Shown here: piece after piece, positions 23,109 through 41,723 of the stretch
Numbering within the stretch: the stretch's first letter is position 1
Layout of the letters: every line of letters starts with the position of its first letter
DNA from: Gimesia chilikensis
GTDB lineage: Bacteria > Planctomycetota > Planctomycetia > Planctomycetales > Planctomycetaceae
Assembly: GCF_007744075.1 (NCBI RefSeq)
Contig: NZ_CP036266.1
Span: 2,775,748 to 2,839,747, forward strand
Reading direction: 5' to 3'
Length of the DNA stretch: 64,000 nucleotides
Notes under the pieces: model-generated
The model's input: the letters and a program-made list of their open reading frames with translations, nothing else
Told to the model about the DNA's origin: nothing
The model's database searches: none
Program-made: the position numbers and the translations under genes

Positions 23109-23423
23109 ATGACGAATTCCATCAGTCATATCGGAAATGCATTTGTGCCGGGGATTCCCCCGACAGGCATTCAGGAAGCAGGCACTGCCAACCCATCGGG
23201 CGGTCCTTCCTTCAAGGAACTGATGCTGGACTCACTGCATAACGCCAATCAGATTCAGCTGGACTCGCAACAGGCTATTGAAAAAGGGCTGCTGGGAGGC
23301 GATATCACCCAGGCAGAAGTCTTTACTTCGGTGAAGAAGGCGGATCTGGCTCTGAAGATGATGGTGCAGATGCGAAATAAACTGCTGGAAGCCTACAACG
23401 AAGTACAGCGGATGCAGCTCTGA
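23109..23423 (+). CDS. fliE: Flagellar hook-basal body complex protein FliE
   Basis: 104-residue adaptor linking the MS ring to the rod. It shows the typical FSFKELML-like start of the ordered part (here PSFKELMLDSL at about 36-46). The rest is helical, with the C-terminal KADLALKMMVQMRNKLLEAY stretch that defines the family. The first 30 residues are disordered. Confidence 0.9.
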   Translation: MTNSISHIGNAFVPGIPPTGIQEAGTANPSGGPSFKELMLDSLHNANQIQLDSQQAIEKGLLGGDITQAEVFTSVKKADLALKMMVQMRNKLLEAYNEVQRMQL

Positions 23424-23488: not shown

Positions 23489-25105
23489 ATGGATACGATA
23501 AAAAAAATATATCAACAGTTCGCAAGCTTATATCAGAACATGACGGGCAGTCAGCGGGCGATTCTGCTGGCCGTCCCCCTGTTGATGATGGTTGCGTTTG
23601 GCTTCCTGTTCTTTCGCGAAAGCCAATCCAGTTATGTGTCACTTTCGCTGGGGAAAGATTTCACCACGGAAGGTGTGATTCATGCTGAAGAAGTCCTGCT
23701 GCGGGCGGGATTGACCGACTTCACCCGGAAAGGACAGCGGATCATGGTCCCGCAGTCCGAAGTGACCCGCTACAATGCAGCGCTGATTGAAGGTGGCGGG
23801 CTACCGACTGACTGGGCATCCGAATGGCAGGAGCAGTTTGAGAAATCGAGCATGTTCGTCAGCAAGGACCAGTTGCAGGTCATGCGGGATATCGCTTTAG
23901 GGAATCAGCTGCGCAGAATGATCCGGGCCATCCCCTCGATTGAAGATGCGAGTGTAATGTGGGCCCGTTCCAAGAAACGGCTTCGCTGGAATAACACCAC
24001 TCCCGAAGTCACAGCAACCGTGATGGTCAAGCCACGTCCTGGACGGGAACTCTCTCCGACTCTGGCGAGCAGCCTGCGGGCAGCGGTTTCCACCATGGTA
24101 CCTGACCTGACTGCGGAATCGGTGACCGTCTTCGACCAGTCCACCGGAAACTCTTACACCGCGGAAGATAAGAATGCCGCCTTCGATGGTAAATTCATCA
24201 GCTGGGTCAACAAGCATACCCGAAATTACCAGACCAAGATTCTGGATTCTCTCTCTTACATTCCCGATGTAATCGTGAATGTGAACGTTGATGTAGAAAA
24301 CCTGAAGCGCTACGTTGAACGCAAGCAGGAAATCAACACCGATGGCACGGTCGCACTGCAGTCGAAAGAGCAGTCGACAGAGCGGAATATCACTCAGAAG
24401 CCGGCCCGGGCCGAACCGGGGGCCCGTTCCAATCAGCCTAATTCGCTGTCGGTTGCACGCGGTAATGAGAAGAACGAGAAGGTAACCGAAACGAATTCAG
24501 AATCGCTGTCGGCGCCTTCCTTTACCTGGACGGAAAAAGAGTTTGTCGCTGCGATGCCGAACACGGTTCAGGTTTCAATTTCCATTCCCGAAGACTATTA
24601 CGCTGCCGTTGCAATCAAACGAGGCATCCAGAAGGGAGAGTCGGATGCAGATCTGGCCACCTTCAAACAGGCGACCGATACGATCAAAGCTGAGGTGGAA
24701 ACCAGTATTCAGAAACAGGTTCAGAAGCTGATTCCCTCCCAGTCCGCTGAGAATTCCGTAAGCGTCGCTTCATTCGTTCGTGTGGATCAGCAGGTGCCGG
24801 AAGTGGCATTACCGATAACGGAAACCGTAGGTGAATTTGTGAGCCAGTGGGGCAGCACCATCGGTTTGGGGCTGTTCGCTCTCTGGGCACTCTGGATGCT
24901 CAATAAGAGTATGCCGGAGATTGAAGAAGTCAATACGGAGGAAGTAAACATGCCTCGCGAAAAACCGACTCCCGCGGAAGACGAAGAGGAAGAGATTCGC
25001 CCCCGCAGGCAACCGACACAGCGGGATGAAGTGCAGTTACTCGTACGCGACAATCCAGAAGCCGCGGCCCTGGTGCTGCGAAAGTGGATCCAGTCCAAGT
25101 CGTAG
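23489..25105 (+). CDS. fliF: Flagellar MS-ring protein FliF
   Basis: 538 residues forming the membrane ring on which the flagellum is built. Two membrane helices (about 26-46 and 450-468) flank ring-building domains in the periplasm; the conserved pieces DFTTEGVIHAEEVLLRAGL, GNQLRRMIRAI and VTVMVKPRPG-like segments are visible. The C-terminal cytoplasmic tail is acidic/Arg-rich and ends in a helix (VRDNPEAAALVLRKWI) of the kind that binds FliG, encoded directly downstream. Confidence 0.94.
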   Translation: MDTIKKIYQQFASLYQNMTGSQRAILLAVPLLMMVAFGFLFFRESQSSYVSLSLGKDFTTEGVIHAEEVLLRAGLTDFTRKGQRIMVPQSEVTRYNAALIEGGGLPTDWASEWQEQFEKSSMFVSKDQLQVMRDIALGNQLRRMIRAIPSIEDASVMWARSKKRLRWNNTTPEVTATVMVKPRPGRELSPTLASSLRAAVSTMVPDLTAESVTVFDQSTGNSYTAEDKNAAFDGKFISWVNKHTRNYQTKILDSLSYIPDVIVNVNVDVENLKRYVERKQEINTDGTVALQSKEQSTERNITQKPARAEPGARSNQPNSLSVARGNEKNEKVTETNSESLSAPSFTWTEKEFVAAMPNTVQVSISIPEDYYAAVAIKRGIQKGESDADLATFKQATDTIKAEVETSIQKQVQKLIPSQSAENSVSVASFVRVDQQVPEVALPITETVGEFVSQWGSTIGLGLFALWALWMLNKSMPEIEEVNTEEVNMPREKPTPAEDEEEEIRPRRQPTQRDEVQLLVRDNPEAAALVLRKWIQSKS

Positions 25106-37440: not shown

Positions 37441-38340
37441 ATGATTCGTCTTTGCATTCTTGCCGTACTGACGTTGCTCTGCCTGCTGATCTCAGCGGTG
37501 CGAAGCCAGGCAGCCGAACCTGCGTATCAGTCGCGGCCATCTGAATTTCGCCAGCCCCGTGAGATGTCCGGTAATCCCAATACGTATTCCCGGACGGCAC
37601 AACGGGGAGTGGCTCCGACTACCATTGGTCGGGAGAGTTTGAATCGGCCGCAGCCGGTCAATTCCGGAATCGCTCCCTCACAGACGCGCAGTCTGCCTCA
37701 ACAGAGAATGCCCTCAGAAGCAAAGACGGTTGCGAATCCGATTACTCCCCTGGATCGACAGAAACAGGCAAATTCAACAGCAGAAGATCAGGCATCTCCA
37801 CGACGGGTGCCTTCCATCTGGGGGACATTCGGTGCGCTGGCACTGGTGATCGGCATAATCCTGATCGCTGCGAAAGTGATGAAAAAACATAATCCTTTGT
37901 CTGCGAAAACGCTGCCTCGCGAAGTGCTCGAAGTTCTGGGAAAACGGCCGTTGGATGCCCGTCAGACCATTCACTTCGTGAGATGCGGCAATCGGATCCT
38001 GATTCTGGGATCATCGCCCGCGGGTCTGGAGACCTTGAGCGAAGTTCTGGATCCGGTCGAAGTCGATCTGATTACCGGAATGTGTCGCGAACAGGCGGAC
38101 TCTTCTCGTGCAAATCAGTCGTTCCTGAACCTGTTTCAATCGACTCAGCAAAAGACACCACCAGCGCGTACTGAGCGAAAGCCGGAACGTGTGCAACCTC
38201 CGGTACGTTCTGAAGCGGAGCCTGAAACAACTCAGGACGAATATCCCGAATTTGATTCTGCCATGTCCCGGTTGCAGCAGAAACTGTTACAGCCTTCCCG
38301 TCATTCCCTGAATGAAACCGGGGACCGCGATCATGTTTAA
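37441..38340 (+). CDS. fliO: Flagellar biosynthetic protein FliO
   Basis: 299 residues: a signal peptide (1-26), a periplasmic disordered Gln/Pro/Arg-rich segment, one membrane helix (about 126-144, [18 protein letters not shown]), then the cytoplasmic FliO domain with [21 protein letters not shown] and [20 protein letters not shown] charged tail follows. Longer than enteric FliO (about 125), mostly because of the periplasmic part. The last eight bases overlap fliP. Confidence 0.87.
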
Positions 38341-39274
38341 GCGGAGCGGGGGGGGACAGCTCCGAAATCTGGGAGCCTGGTTGTGTCTGTGCTGGTTACT
38401 GACAGGGACAGACGCTCTGCAGGCACAGACCACAGCGCAGAATCAGGCACTCTCTAACCAGGGAGTGGGCAGTCAGAGTCTGCAGAATTTCCCGGCGCAG
38501 GCCGATCCCAACGTGCAGCCTGCTTCTGCTGAGAAATCAGGAGTTCCCGAGCTGCTGAATGTGGAGCAGATGACGTCACCGGAAGGTCTGAATTCGACTC
38601 TCAAGCTGTTTCTGTTACTGACTGTATTAAGTCTGGCTCCGTCGATTCTGATCATGACGACCTGTTTTATCCGGTTTGTGATTGTATTCGGATTGTTACG
38701 TCAGGCACTGGGAACGCAGCAATTACCACCGAACCAGGTGCTGACTTCCCTGAGTCTGTTTCTGACCTTCATGGTGATGGCTCCCATCTGGGAGAAAGCC
38801 TACGAGGAGGGAATCGTCCCCTATACGAACCAGACTCAGCAGGCTCCAGTGTCGCTGGAAGACGCATTTGAAAAGACGGTTGCTCCCCTGCGAAAGTTCA
38901 TGAGCGATCAGATTGAACTCACAGGTAACAGTGATACGGTCTGGATGTTTCTCGACTATCAGCGACCGCTGCCTGGTTCTCCCGGAGCCGCGGAATATAA
39001 AGCACCCAGCGACTACGACGAAGTCCCTTTGAGTGTGTTGCTGCCGGCCTACATGTTGAGCGAAGTCAAAACCGCGTTTCTGATCGGCTTCCAACTGTAT
39101 CTGCCTTTTATTGTGATCGACATGGTGATCAGTTCGATTCTGATCAGCATGGGGATGATGATGTTGCCCCCGGTGTTGATCTCATTACCGTTTAAAATTC
39201 TGTTATTTGTCTTGATTGATGGCTGGTTACTGACAGTAGGCATGCTGCTGGAGAGTATCAGGGCCGTAGGATAA
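38333..39274 (+). CDS. fliP: Flagellar export gate protein FliP
   Basis: 313-residue core subunit of the type III export gate. A cleavable signal peptide (about 1-31) is followed by a periplasmic linker and the conserved domain: [38 protein letters not shown] in pieces, the extracellular loop, and the C-terminal [37 protein letters not shown] region in pieces. The ATG at 38333 lies inside the overlap ATGTTTAA with fliO; an in-frame ATG at 38312 would overlap more and delay the signal sequence. Confidence 0.94.
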
Positions 39275-39327: not shown

Positions 39328-39594
39328 ATGGATACGTCAACCGTTGTGGATCTGGGGCGAGAAGGACTGCTGATCATGCTGGAAGTCAGCGGCCCGGTGA
39401 TGCTGACCGCCGTCGTGGTCGGTCTGGTGATCAGTATCGGCCAGGCGGTGACCCAGATTCAGGACCAGACCATCAGTTTCGTGCCTAAAATCATCATGAT
39501 GGTGCTGGCGATTCTGTATACATTGCCCTGGATCACAGCATTGATGATGGAGTATAGCACCAGTCTGATCACCAACATTCCGTCGCGGCTCTGA
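39328..39594 (+). CDS. fliQ: Flagellar export gate protein FliQ
   Basis: 88 residues with two hydrophobic helices and the diagnostic stretch LVISIGQAVTQIQDQTISFVPK. Four copies assemble with FliP and FliR in the export gate. Order fliP-fliQ-fliR-flhB is the standard one. Confidence 0.94.
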   Translation: MDTSTVVDLGREGLLIMLEVSGPVMLTAVVVGLVISIGQAVTQIQDQTISFVPKIIMMVLAILYTLPWITALMMEYSTSLITNIPSRL

Positions 39595-39631: not shown

Positions 39632-40621
39632 GTGAGCGCACTGCTCGATCAATATCTGTTGAATCCCATTTTGCAGCTGGCGCCTGGTCAGATTCTGCAA
39701 TGGGCGATGCTGCAGTTCTATGCCTTCACGCTGGTCCTGGTTCGGATCAGCGGTCTGATGATTATCGGGCCTGTATTCGGGCAGCCGATCTTTCCGACGA
39801 ATATCCGGGTGCTGTTAATTGTGTGCCTGTCGATTCTGATCACCCCGACGCTGCACGAACAGGTTACCGTTGGTTTCTATCAGCTGGATGCCAATCAGGA
39901 TCAGCGACTCAGCCAGGATGAAGTGCCCGCGCATCTGCAGAAACGCTTTGAGGAGCTACTCGTCAGCAGTGGTCGCCAGGGAGAACGGGAACTGACAGTC
40001 AACGATTACCGCTTCGTCACGCATATGCCGGCGTCTCTGTTGGATTATGCCTGGTCGATTCTGGGTGAGTTGACACTGGGCTTTGCCCTGGGGCTAGGGG
40101 TATTTCTGATTCTGTTAAGTCTGCAGATGGCCGGTCAGATGATTGATCAGCAGGCGGGGATGGCGCTGGGAGAAGTCTTCAATCCCGGCTTTGACATGAA
40201 CGCGTCGTTGAGTGGCCAGTACCTGTATTATGTGGGGATCGCGGTCTTTCTGCTGATGGAGCCGATTAATGGTCATCTGCTGATGCTTTCGGCGTTGATC
40301 GATACGTTCCAGATCTTTCCCGTCGGCGAGGGGATTGTCTCAACCAATACGCTGGATCTGTTGCAGGCCCTGATGCATCAGTCGCTGGTGCTTTCGGTAA
40401 AAGTTGCCGCGCCCCTGCTGGCGATCAGTGCCCTGATTTCGCTGGCGATGGGGTACCTGGGACATACGGTTCCCCAGATCAATGTGCTGGTGATCGGCTT
40501 TCCGATTCGTGCGATTGTCAGTCTGGTCGTCCTGATCTTCACCCTGTCTGGCGCCGCTGACATTGTGGTCGAATCGATTCCCAGTGCCATCGATCAGATC
40601 AGCCGCAGTACCGTGATGTAG
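39632..40621 (+). CDS. fliR: Flagellar export gate protein FliR with an inserted EF-hand
   Basis: 329 residues against about 260 in most bacteria. The FliR core is intact: VLVRISGLMIIGPVFGQP (about 36-52), the GQMIDQQAGMALGEVFNPG region (about 170-190), and the C-terminal APLLAISALISLAMGYLGHTVPQINVLVIGFPI segment in pieces. Between the second hydrophobic segment and the following ILGELTLGFALGL helix lies an extra stretch of roughly 50 residues (about 80-133). It contains a perfect 12-residue EF-hand loop, DANQDQRLSQDE at 86-97 (bases 39887-39922), followed by a helix AHLQKRFEELL. Asp, Asn and Asp at positions 1, 3 and 5 and Glu at 12 are the calcium ligands. The GTG start follows GAGAAGG. Confidence 0.94.
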   Translation: MSALLDQYLLNPILQLAPGQILQWAMLQFYAFTLVLVRISGLMIIGPVFGQPIFPTNIRVLLIVCLSILITPTLHEQVTVGFYQLDANQDQRLSQDEVPAHLQKRFEELLVSSGRQGERELTVNDYRFVTHMPASLLDYAWSILGELTLGFALGLGVFLILLSLQMAGQMIDQQAGMALGEVFNPGFDMNASLSGQYLYYVGIAVFLLMEPINGHLLMLSALIDTFQIFPVGEGIVSTNTLDLLQALMHQSLVLSVKVAAPLLAISALISLAMGYLGHTVPQINVLVIGFPIRAIVSLVVLIFTLSGAADIVVESIPSAIDQISRSTVM

Positions 40622-40643: not shown

Positions 40644-41723
40644 ATGGCAGAGAATGATACCGGAGAAAAAACAGAAGACCCGACGGATCGCCGGCGCAAT
40701 GAAGCCCGCGAGAAGGGGAACATTGCGAAAAGTACCGACCTGAATGCAGCGGGGATGATGCTGGCGACAGCGGGTGTGCTTTACTTCTTTGCGGTCAGTC
40801 TGAGCCACGACATGAAGAATCTGATGGAAGCGACGCTGACCAGCCCGGTCTGGCTGCGTGTCGATACCGCGGTCATCATGGAACGCGTGCAGGCGATCAT
40901 TAAACAGTTTCTGCAGGGATCTGCTCTGACGATGCTGATTCTGTTTATCGCTGCCATCATCCTGAATATCGTACAGGTCGGATTCATGATGACCCCGGAT
41001 GTGCTGCAGATCAAATGGGAACGCCTGAATCCGATTGAAGGTGCCAAACGAATCGTTTCGATTCGCGGACTGGTCAAGCTGGGAGTCAGCCTGGGAAAAA
41101 TTACGCTGCTGGTGCTGATCGCGGTCTGGTTCAGCTACCTGGTGTTCCCGAATTTTCTCGCGTTGATGGGGGCACCTCCCGAGACCATTATGCGCGACAT
41201 TTTTAATTCCTCGATCGAGCTGGGCATCCTGCTGGCACTGGCGCTGATTATCCTGGGAGGTCTGGATTTTGCCTTTCAGAAATGGAAGCATGAAAAAGAC
41301 CTGATGATGAGTAAGCAGGAAGTCCGCGAAGAGATGAAGTCGATGGACGGGGATCCGCTGATCCGTCAGAGACGCCGCGAAGCACATCGCAAACTGGCAC
41401 TCTCGCAGGAACTCTCCCAGGTCGCGAATTCCGATGTTGTGATCACCAACCCGACCCATATTTCGATTGCCATCAAGTACGATCCGGAGAAGATGCCGGC
41501 ACCGGTTGTTGTGGCCAAAGGGGCAGGGGAGATCGCGTTGCAGATCCGGAAGATCGCCAATGAACATGGGATTCCGATTATCGAACGGAAGCCGCTGGCG
41601 CGACAGATGTATCGCGATGTGAAAGCCGGCGAGGAAATTCCTTTCGAACTGTACGAGGTCTTTGTCGAGATCATGGCCTACGTCTATAATCTGACCGGAA
41701 AAACGATGCCGGACGCCCGCTGA
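40644..41723 (+). CDS. flhB: Flagellar export switch protein FlhB
   Basis: 359 residues. The N-terminal EKTEDPTDRRRNEAREKGNIAKS pattern, four membrane helices (about 30-50, 90-112, 145-165 and 185-208), and a cytoplasmic domain with the self-cleavage motif Asn269-Pro270-Thr271-His272, at the same residue numbers as in E. coli. Cleavage changes export from rod/hook to filament proteins together with FliK. The gene ends in a perfect 14-bp palindrome (41717-41730) that includes the stop codon. Confidence 0.95.
   Translation: MAENDTGEKTEDPTDRRRNEAREKGNIAKSTDLNAAGMMLATAGVLYFFAVSLSHDMKNLMEATLTSPVWLRVDTAVIMERVQAIIKQFLQGSALTMLILFIAAIILNIVQVGFMMTPDVLQIKWERLNPIEGAKRIVSIRGLVKLGVSLGKITLLVLIAVWFSYLVFPNFLALMGAPPETIMRDIFNSSIELGILLALALIILGGLDFAFQKWKHEKDLMMSKQEVREEMKSMDGDPLIRQRRREAHRKLALSQELSQVANSDVVITNPTHISIAIKYDPEKMPAPVVVAKGAGEIALQIRKIANEHGIPIIERKPLARQMYRDVKAGEEIPFELYEVFVEIMAYVYNLTGKTMPDAR

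Follow-up and report, generated by a model that had tools for sequence, protein, structure and literature searches.

A predicted EF-hand lobe within the R-loop of the flagellar export gate protein FliR in one planctomycete family

At the core of type III export gates stand FliR and its relatives. A FliP–FliQ unit is described as the structural equivalent of FliR (PMC7064499). In a recent study of the Salmonella gate (Kinoshita et al. 2025, PMC12403130), the periplasmic gate is described as the location of the β-cap and of the N-terminal portions of FliP and FliR. The R-loop of Salmonella FliR (residues 55–68) lies in the β-cap pore, where P64-L65-F66 clash with helix α3 of the first FliE molecule (FliE1); the authors propose that the loop prevents premature secretion as long as FliE has not docked, and that it has to rearrange. 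In the same study, the FliP helix-turn-helix shifts outward upon opening, and the FliP p-loop touches the i-loop of FliF and supports the open gate (PMC12403130). FliR and the EF-hand are both known families; within the open-licence literature searched, their combination and the position of the EF-hand in FliR are undescribed. The papers searched there, for broad queries the best-ranked ones, did not describe FliR as having a Ca2+ site; the sequence-only reading knew of no calcium-binding FliR.

The stretch of DNA analyzed here (the window) comprises 64,000 nucleotides of Gimesia chilikensis (contig NZ_CP036266.1, positions 2,775,748 to 2,839,747), from a genome that consists of one contig of 8.29 Mb; all features of the window described below lie on the plus strand. 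The fliR gene (39632..40621) has a GTG start at 39632 and a stop codon ending at 40621, and encodes a flagellar export gate protein of 329 amino acids with an EF-hand insert. Its product matched Pfam Bac_export_1 (PF01311) over residues 30–313 (E = 1.9e-45) with 155.7 bits versus a curated cut-off of 27.8 bits, and thus belongs to this family; it is 84–87% identical to the FliRs of Gimesia sp. (L049–L051). As part of a long flagellar gene cluster, the gene order is fliO-P-Q-R-flhB, with fliO at 37441..38340 (PF04347, 5.6e-7) and the genes of the gate partners FliP at 38312..39274 (PF00813, 1.5e-72), FliQ at 39328..39594 (PF01313, 3.6e-26), and FlhB at 40644..41723 (PF01312, 9.9e-117). The window further encodes FliE (23109..23423, PF02049, 9.4e-21), a protein of the rod base by which the periplasmic gate of Salmonella is opened and here the sole FliE match found in the whole genome, and FliF (23489..25105, PF01514, 1.1e-21), the MS-ring protein that surrounds the gate. 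The FliP of the window has 320 amino acids, but its Pfam match begins only at residue 102. Its p-loop, which seems longer than that of Salmonella, might accompany an altered rim of the gate.

Within FliR, residues 86–97 (39887..39922, DANQDQRLSQDE) form a predicted canonical 12-residue EF-hand Ca2+ loop, a reading backed by ligand conservation (see below). The ligand positions 1, 3, 5, 9, and 12 are occupied by D86, N88, D90, S94, and E97, as claimed from the sequence; at position 6, Gln stands in place of the usual Gly. In the AlphaFold2 model, FliR helix 2 (residues 56–85, 39797..39886) continues unbroken into the EF-hand entering helix (about residues 73–85), and the loop is followed by the exiting helix that had been anticipated (residues 100–112, 39929..39967, in both the full-length and the isolated-insert models). 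A degenerate second EF loop follows (residues 114–125, 39971..40006), of which strand 120–122 pairs the lobe. The second hand ends in a short helix (residues 123–130, 39998..40021), which was formed in the isolated-insert model (helix 53–60, with residue 1 corresponding to FliR residue 71) and not in the full-length model. The whole lobe spans residues 73–133 (39848..40030), as judged from the structural match (about 73–127) and from the break in the alignment with Salmonella FliR. The stretch corresponding to P72–E146 comprised 70–85 residues (median 75) in 57 EF-bearing FliRs and 22–24 residues in 19 FliRs from other families, which gives about 51 extra residues and agrees with the earlier estimate of roughly 50. 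By its sequence and predicted fold, the insert comprises two paired EF-hands, the first with a canonical Ca2+ loop and the second degenerate.

AlphaFold2 prediction on the full FliR alignment gave a mean pLDDT of 84.5 (73.6–84.5 for the five models) and values of 84–93 by blocks in the insert region, which consisted of helix 56–85, strand 92–94, helix 100–112, and strand 120–122. When the isolated insert was folded alone, a helix-strand-helix-strand-helix arrangement was obtained (pLDDT 78.2, pTM 0.55). Strands 92–94 and 120–122 appeared in both models, so that the two hands are predicted to be paired by short strands, and the loop was helix-loop-helix in the AlphaFold2 models; a different fold at this site would have spoken against the original reading. 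VIA-align superposed residues 73–127 (approximate limits) on NCS-1, frequenin, SCaMC-1, and calmodulin at 1.5–2.7 Å over 46–59 residues, with Z values for EF-hand pairs of 5.2–5.8, a range that can reflect merely a common arrangement. In a Foldseek search with the isolated insert, 48 of the best 50 matches (1076 at E up to 10) were titled as EF-hand proteins or EF-hand complexes, while the other two titles (8tkp_B, 9e78_2Q) give no indication; the E values were only 0.015–0.1, at a probability of 0.96 or more. The FliR lobe resembles the calmodulin lobes, NCS-1/frequenin, and the SCaMC-1 regulatory domain in its ligands, the hydrophobic position 8, and strand pairing. It differs from these EF-hand pairs in that its second loop is degenerate, that it sits within a membrane export protein, and that its entering helix is shared with a FliR core helix. 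The FliR model as a whole aligned with the FliR chains of flagellar FliPQR structures at ranks 1–6 (VIA Z 21.5–22.4, 242–256 residues aligned). Two further chains, 7cg4_r and 7bin_A, which are probably FliP, aligned at Z 6.3–6.7.

Profile comparisons pointed to the same relationship. With an insert profile (A3; 67 positions, 35 sequences) searched against the PDB, the best 60 of 492 matches were all EF-hand proteins by name, with a best E value of 1.6e-11, although the strong values add up several repeats per chain and single stretches in two alignments gave E = 0.2–46. The full FliR profile retrieved 11 FliR/SpaR sequences and then, from E = 0.0023, EF-hand proteins only (best 60 of 192). A single-sequence Pfam scan of the window FliR reached no EF-hand cut-off (EF-hand_7, E = 0.12); automatic annotation would therefore probably miss the EF-hand. 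At E of 1 or better, 23 of 35 nonredundant members matched EF-hand_6. Searched against its own genome, the insert profile found FliR itself (5e-24) and then 43 further places (best 9e-11), and the eight proteins read at these places were all EF-hand proteins; genome-wide, 65 PF13202 matches at E of 1 or better were counted. The best further match (9e-11) is a 387-amino-acid EF-hand repeat protein (G000:C1, about 3834.7–3835.6 kb, L214–L216) with an apparent signal peptide, as judged by eye, and several EF-hand lobes. It shares with the FliR insert the D-x-N-x-D loop, the E-(V/A)-P start of the exiting helix, and a similar linker to the second loop, but is a separate protein with several lobes, the first of which has an intact second loop. 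Judged by these sequence likenesses, the donor class of the FliR lobe was likely the apparently exported EF-hand repeat proteins of these bacteria.

To determine conservation, the family was surveyed in 170 genomes by PF01311, which matched in 141 of them, and by a profile built from FliRs that carry the insert. The proteins of 109 family loci were read, and family genomes with an unfetched PF01311 match were assessed by match span alone. In total, 57 FliRs carried the insert, one per genome, from 27 genera; an insert unique to one genome with unconserved ligands, which would have counted against the sequence-only reading, was thus rejected. These 57 were picked by a score above 310 bits with profile A1, independent of the ligands; as A1 was itself made from insert-bearing FliRs, the choice was not wholly blind. 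Among the rows below this cut-off that were also read, no intact lobe with broken ligands was found. Two genomes (G070 and G097) gave FliR fragments only and stand outside the 57. A nonredundant set (<80% identity) comprised 35 of the 57 sequences.

Loop positions 1, 3, 5, and 12 were D, D/N, D/N, and E in 57/57 FliRs (35/35 nonredundant). Position 9 was S, T, D, N, or E in 47/57 and no ligand type in the remaining 10, so that the conservation check proposed for the insert and its five ligand positions came out fully for four of them and in part for the fifth. In the 35 nonredundant rows, position 8 was always L/I/V, position 6 was Gly in 20, and residue 82, four residues before the loop, was F/I/L in 33 and V or A in the other two. 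The five ligand positions had a mean entropy of 0.80 bit (2.48 bits for position 9 alone), compared with 2.58 bits for six other loop positions (range 2.05–3.07). Among the 50 positions 79–128, the five least variable were ligand positions 1, 3, 5, and 12 plus P99, a ranking with a chance of 2e-5 if positions are exchangeable, taken as a post hoc figure. In the second hand, the pairing residue 121 (L/V/M/I/F) and residue 126 (F/Y/L/W) were hydrophobic or aromatic in 35/35 rows, and residue 125 was E/D/Q in 31/35 (E or D in 25/35); the second loop lacks the remaining ligands in these rows and does not look metal-binding. In 17 genomes of the genus, D86, S94, and E97 were invariant and residues 88 and 90 swapped between D and N only; at high synonymous differences (0.65–0.70 per site), changes in ligand codons were solely D/N or synonymous. 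Within the genus, dN/dS was 0.078 for the insert versus 0.039 for the rest of FliR, and 0.19 for residues 100–119 (exiting helix and linker) versus 0.08 for the whole insert. In a set of named genome contigs overlapping the family set, the same motif occurred in 24 of 55 loci (FliR score >300); it was absent from the remaining loci, some of them from other phyla and one of them (L070) a fragment without the region.

The lobe appears to be confined to the family of the window. Among the matches listed for the class (397 genomes) and the phylum (294 genomes), in which insert-bearing FliRs rank top and a very divergent insert would appear only as a break, none from outside the family spans the loop, and 19 FliRs of other families that were read directly lack the insert. 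Within the family, 31 FliRs of 16 genera have no EF-hand and P72–E146 loops of 23 to 80 residues, which makes the EF-hand dispensable in evolution; 21 more distant PF01311 proteins were set aside. A quick tree without bootstrap was built from 99 rows with the insert columns excluded, after eight near-copies from the genus and 21 family loci with scores of at most 120 bits had been dropped; the branch of L185 is long, and its make-up, like that of L177 and L167, is odd. On this tree the EF-hand trait requires at least five changes, three of them forced by well-supported branches. The pattern is best read as one early gain followed by several losses, for which the tree is no proof of a single gain. 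One genus (g47) contains a FliR with the full lobe and one with a short loop (L020 versus L046), which we read as a natural loss pair, an example of loss within one genus. FliRs of another genus (g32; L161, L160, L181) have loops of 53–80 residues without a full EF-hand. The loop of L161 retains the half-motif GGDGRLHRNE, which by its sequence is perhaps a decayed EF-hand remnant.

In the alignment with Salmonella FliR, profile positions 25–75 correspond to residues 14–64 and positions 133–316 to residues 69–249. The lobe therefore falls between Salmonella residues 64 and 69, within the R-loop (55–68). The periplasmic orientation that the sequence-only reading had considered agrees with this comparison with solved FliPQR structures, which places the site in the R-loop of the periplasmic gate; a cytoplasmic location was rejected since the R-loop is located in the β-cap at the periplasmic gate. 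Because the lobe is inserted there, Ca2+ would act at the periplasmic gate. The two FliRs are alike in fold (VIA Z 22.3–22.4 to 9k29 and 8wk3), family profile, gene order, and conserved core; the window FliR differs in its R-loop lobe of about 51 residues and its helix 2 that is predicted to be longer, whereas the Salmonella chain (264 amino acids, PDB copy) has no lobe. By analogy, we infer that the lobe occupies the same place after helix 2 as the FliP helix-turn-helix α3–α4 and p-loop, which is likewise helical and lies at the periplasmic face of the gate (PMC12403130). The likeness is one of position only: the FliP element is not known to be an EF-hand, and the excerpts of PMC12403130 mention no metal there. 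Direct comparison of FliR with a single FliP by hhalign gave no useful match, and global alignment was likewise useless; the full profiles matched over 24 columns only (P = 0.02), elsewhere in the protein. Sub-profiles placed helix 2 on helix 2 weakly (hhalign P = 0.02) with a score of 14.3 versus 14.1 for the best shuffle, and 0 of 60 column shuffles were as good. This weak match agrees with the FliR–FliP equivalence.

On the basis of sequence and model, the lobe very probably carries helix 2 on toward the periplasmic face of the gate, with a single Ca2+ bound in its first loop. The best explanation, to which we assign a probability of about 0.6, is a constitutively Ca2+-loaded structural lobe in the R-loop that was inserted early in the family. 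An EF-hand lobe of the type found in apparently exported proteins of the genome would have entered the FliR R-loop early in this one family, and its first loop would hold one Ca2+ and be filled at normal periplasmic Ca2+. The metal would serve as a structural staple, giving a rigid lobe in which helix 2, the exiting helix, and the paired strand are locked together. Taking the place of the short R-loop tip, this lobe would organize the gate loop and shape the site at which FliE first docks between FliR and FliP5, and it may touch the MS-ring in the manner of the FliP p-loop. The glutamate at EF-loop position 12 favors Ca2+ over Mg2+. EF-hands outside the cytoplasm are constitutively loaded as a rule, which makes stabilization likelier than gating. 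Constitutive loading, the docking role, and the single gain are what we infer from these data.

Alternative explanations start with the signal itself. A chance resemblance to an EF-hand, which the failure of the single sequence to reach Pfam cut-offs would allow, was rejected as extremely improbable because the profile search, the predicted fold, and conservation across 27 genera all agree; the features that run against the structural lobe include the variable position 9 (2.48 bits) and the Gly at position 6 in just 20/35 rows. It is also quite improbable that the insert is a relic or neutral and has lost metal binding. Its absence from several family lineages would fit such a history, as would the loop of L161 and further loops of intermediate length in the family, taken as possible decayed remnants, but D1, D/N3, D/N5, and E12 persist in 57/57 sequences while their neighbors vary, and ligand codons in the genus change just between D and N or synonymously. 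Somewhat less remote, yet still unlikely, is that the lobe serves mainly as a docking surface that FliR otherwise lacks compared with FliP (helix-turn-helix α3–α4 and p-loop), providing a sixth MS-ring contact with Ca2+ merely folding it. For this speak the insertion after a FliR helix that seemingly, if weakly, matches FliP helix 2, the equivalence of the FliP–FliQ unit to FliR (PMC7064499, excerpts), and the p-loop contact to the FliF i-loop that supports the open gate (PMC12403130, excerpts); the fast-changing residues 100–119 (dN/dS 0.19 versus 0.08) argue against a fixed partner surface there. This reading overlaps with the structural lobe, with the emphasis on the partner, and the structural and gated readings alike share ground with docking to FliF or FliE.

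A gate regulated by Ca2+ is possible but doubtful. Here, outside Ca2+ would alter the occupancy of the site, the R-loop would be held blocking (or open), and FliE and later export would be controlled. The lobe does sit in the very loop by which, as proposed in PMC12403130, premature secretion is prevented before FliE has docked. In the model, FliR helix 2 runs straight into the entering helix, and a change at the loop could thereby reach the gate. EF-hand pairs are a standard Ca2+ switch, which also favors regulation. On the other hand, a site of micromolar affinity would usually stay occupied at the Ca2+ levels of the periplasm, and one canonical loop out of two disfavors cooperative switching. 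A variant that we regard as similarly tentative is a latch, in which the Ca2+ of the lobe would lock the R-loop across the FliE entry pore until the loop is freed by release of the ion or by the force with which FliE docks; if true, calcium would gate when these planctomycetes begin to assemble the rod. With the structural lobe as the preferred reading and regulation as the doubtful one, calcium may hold or control the flagellar export gate in one planctomycete family. A natural R-loop in the form of a folded domain of the metal-binding type offers a way to test the role of this loop: mutation of the ligands or removal of Ca2+ could unfold the R-loop lobe and leave the core untouched.

Two minor observations were made on proteins matched in the searches. 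Several family genomes encode a distant PF01311 protein that lacks the insert and in some of them stands beside a second copy (L019, L028, L029, L031, L033–L035, L037, L039, L040, L042–L044); these distant proteins perhaps belong to another type III-like system. Furthermore, FliR matches in Romboutsia and related Firmicutes (L083–L094) lie in open frames of 608–624 amino acids, as expected of a FliR–FlhB fusion, which is mentioned for Clostridium in the excerpts of PMC7064499.
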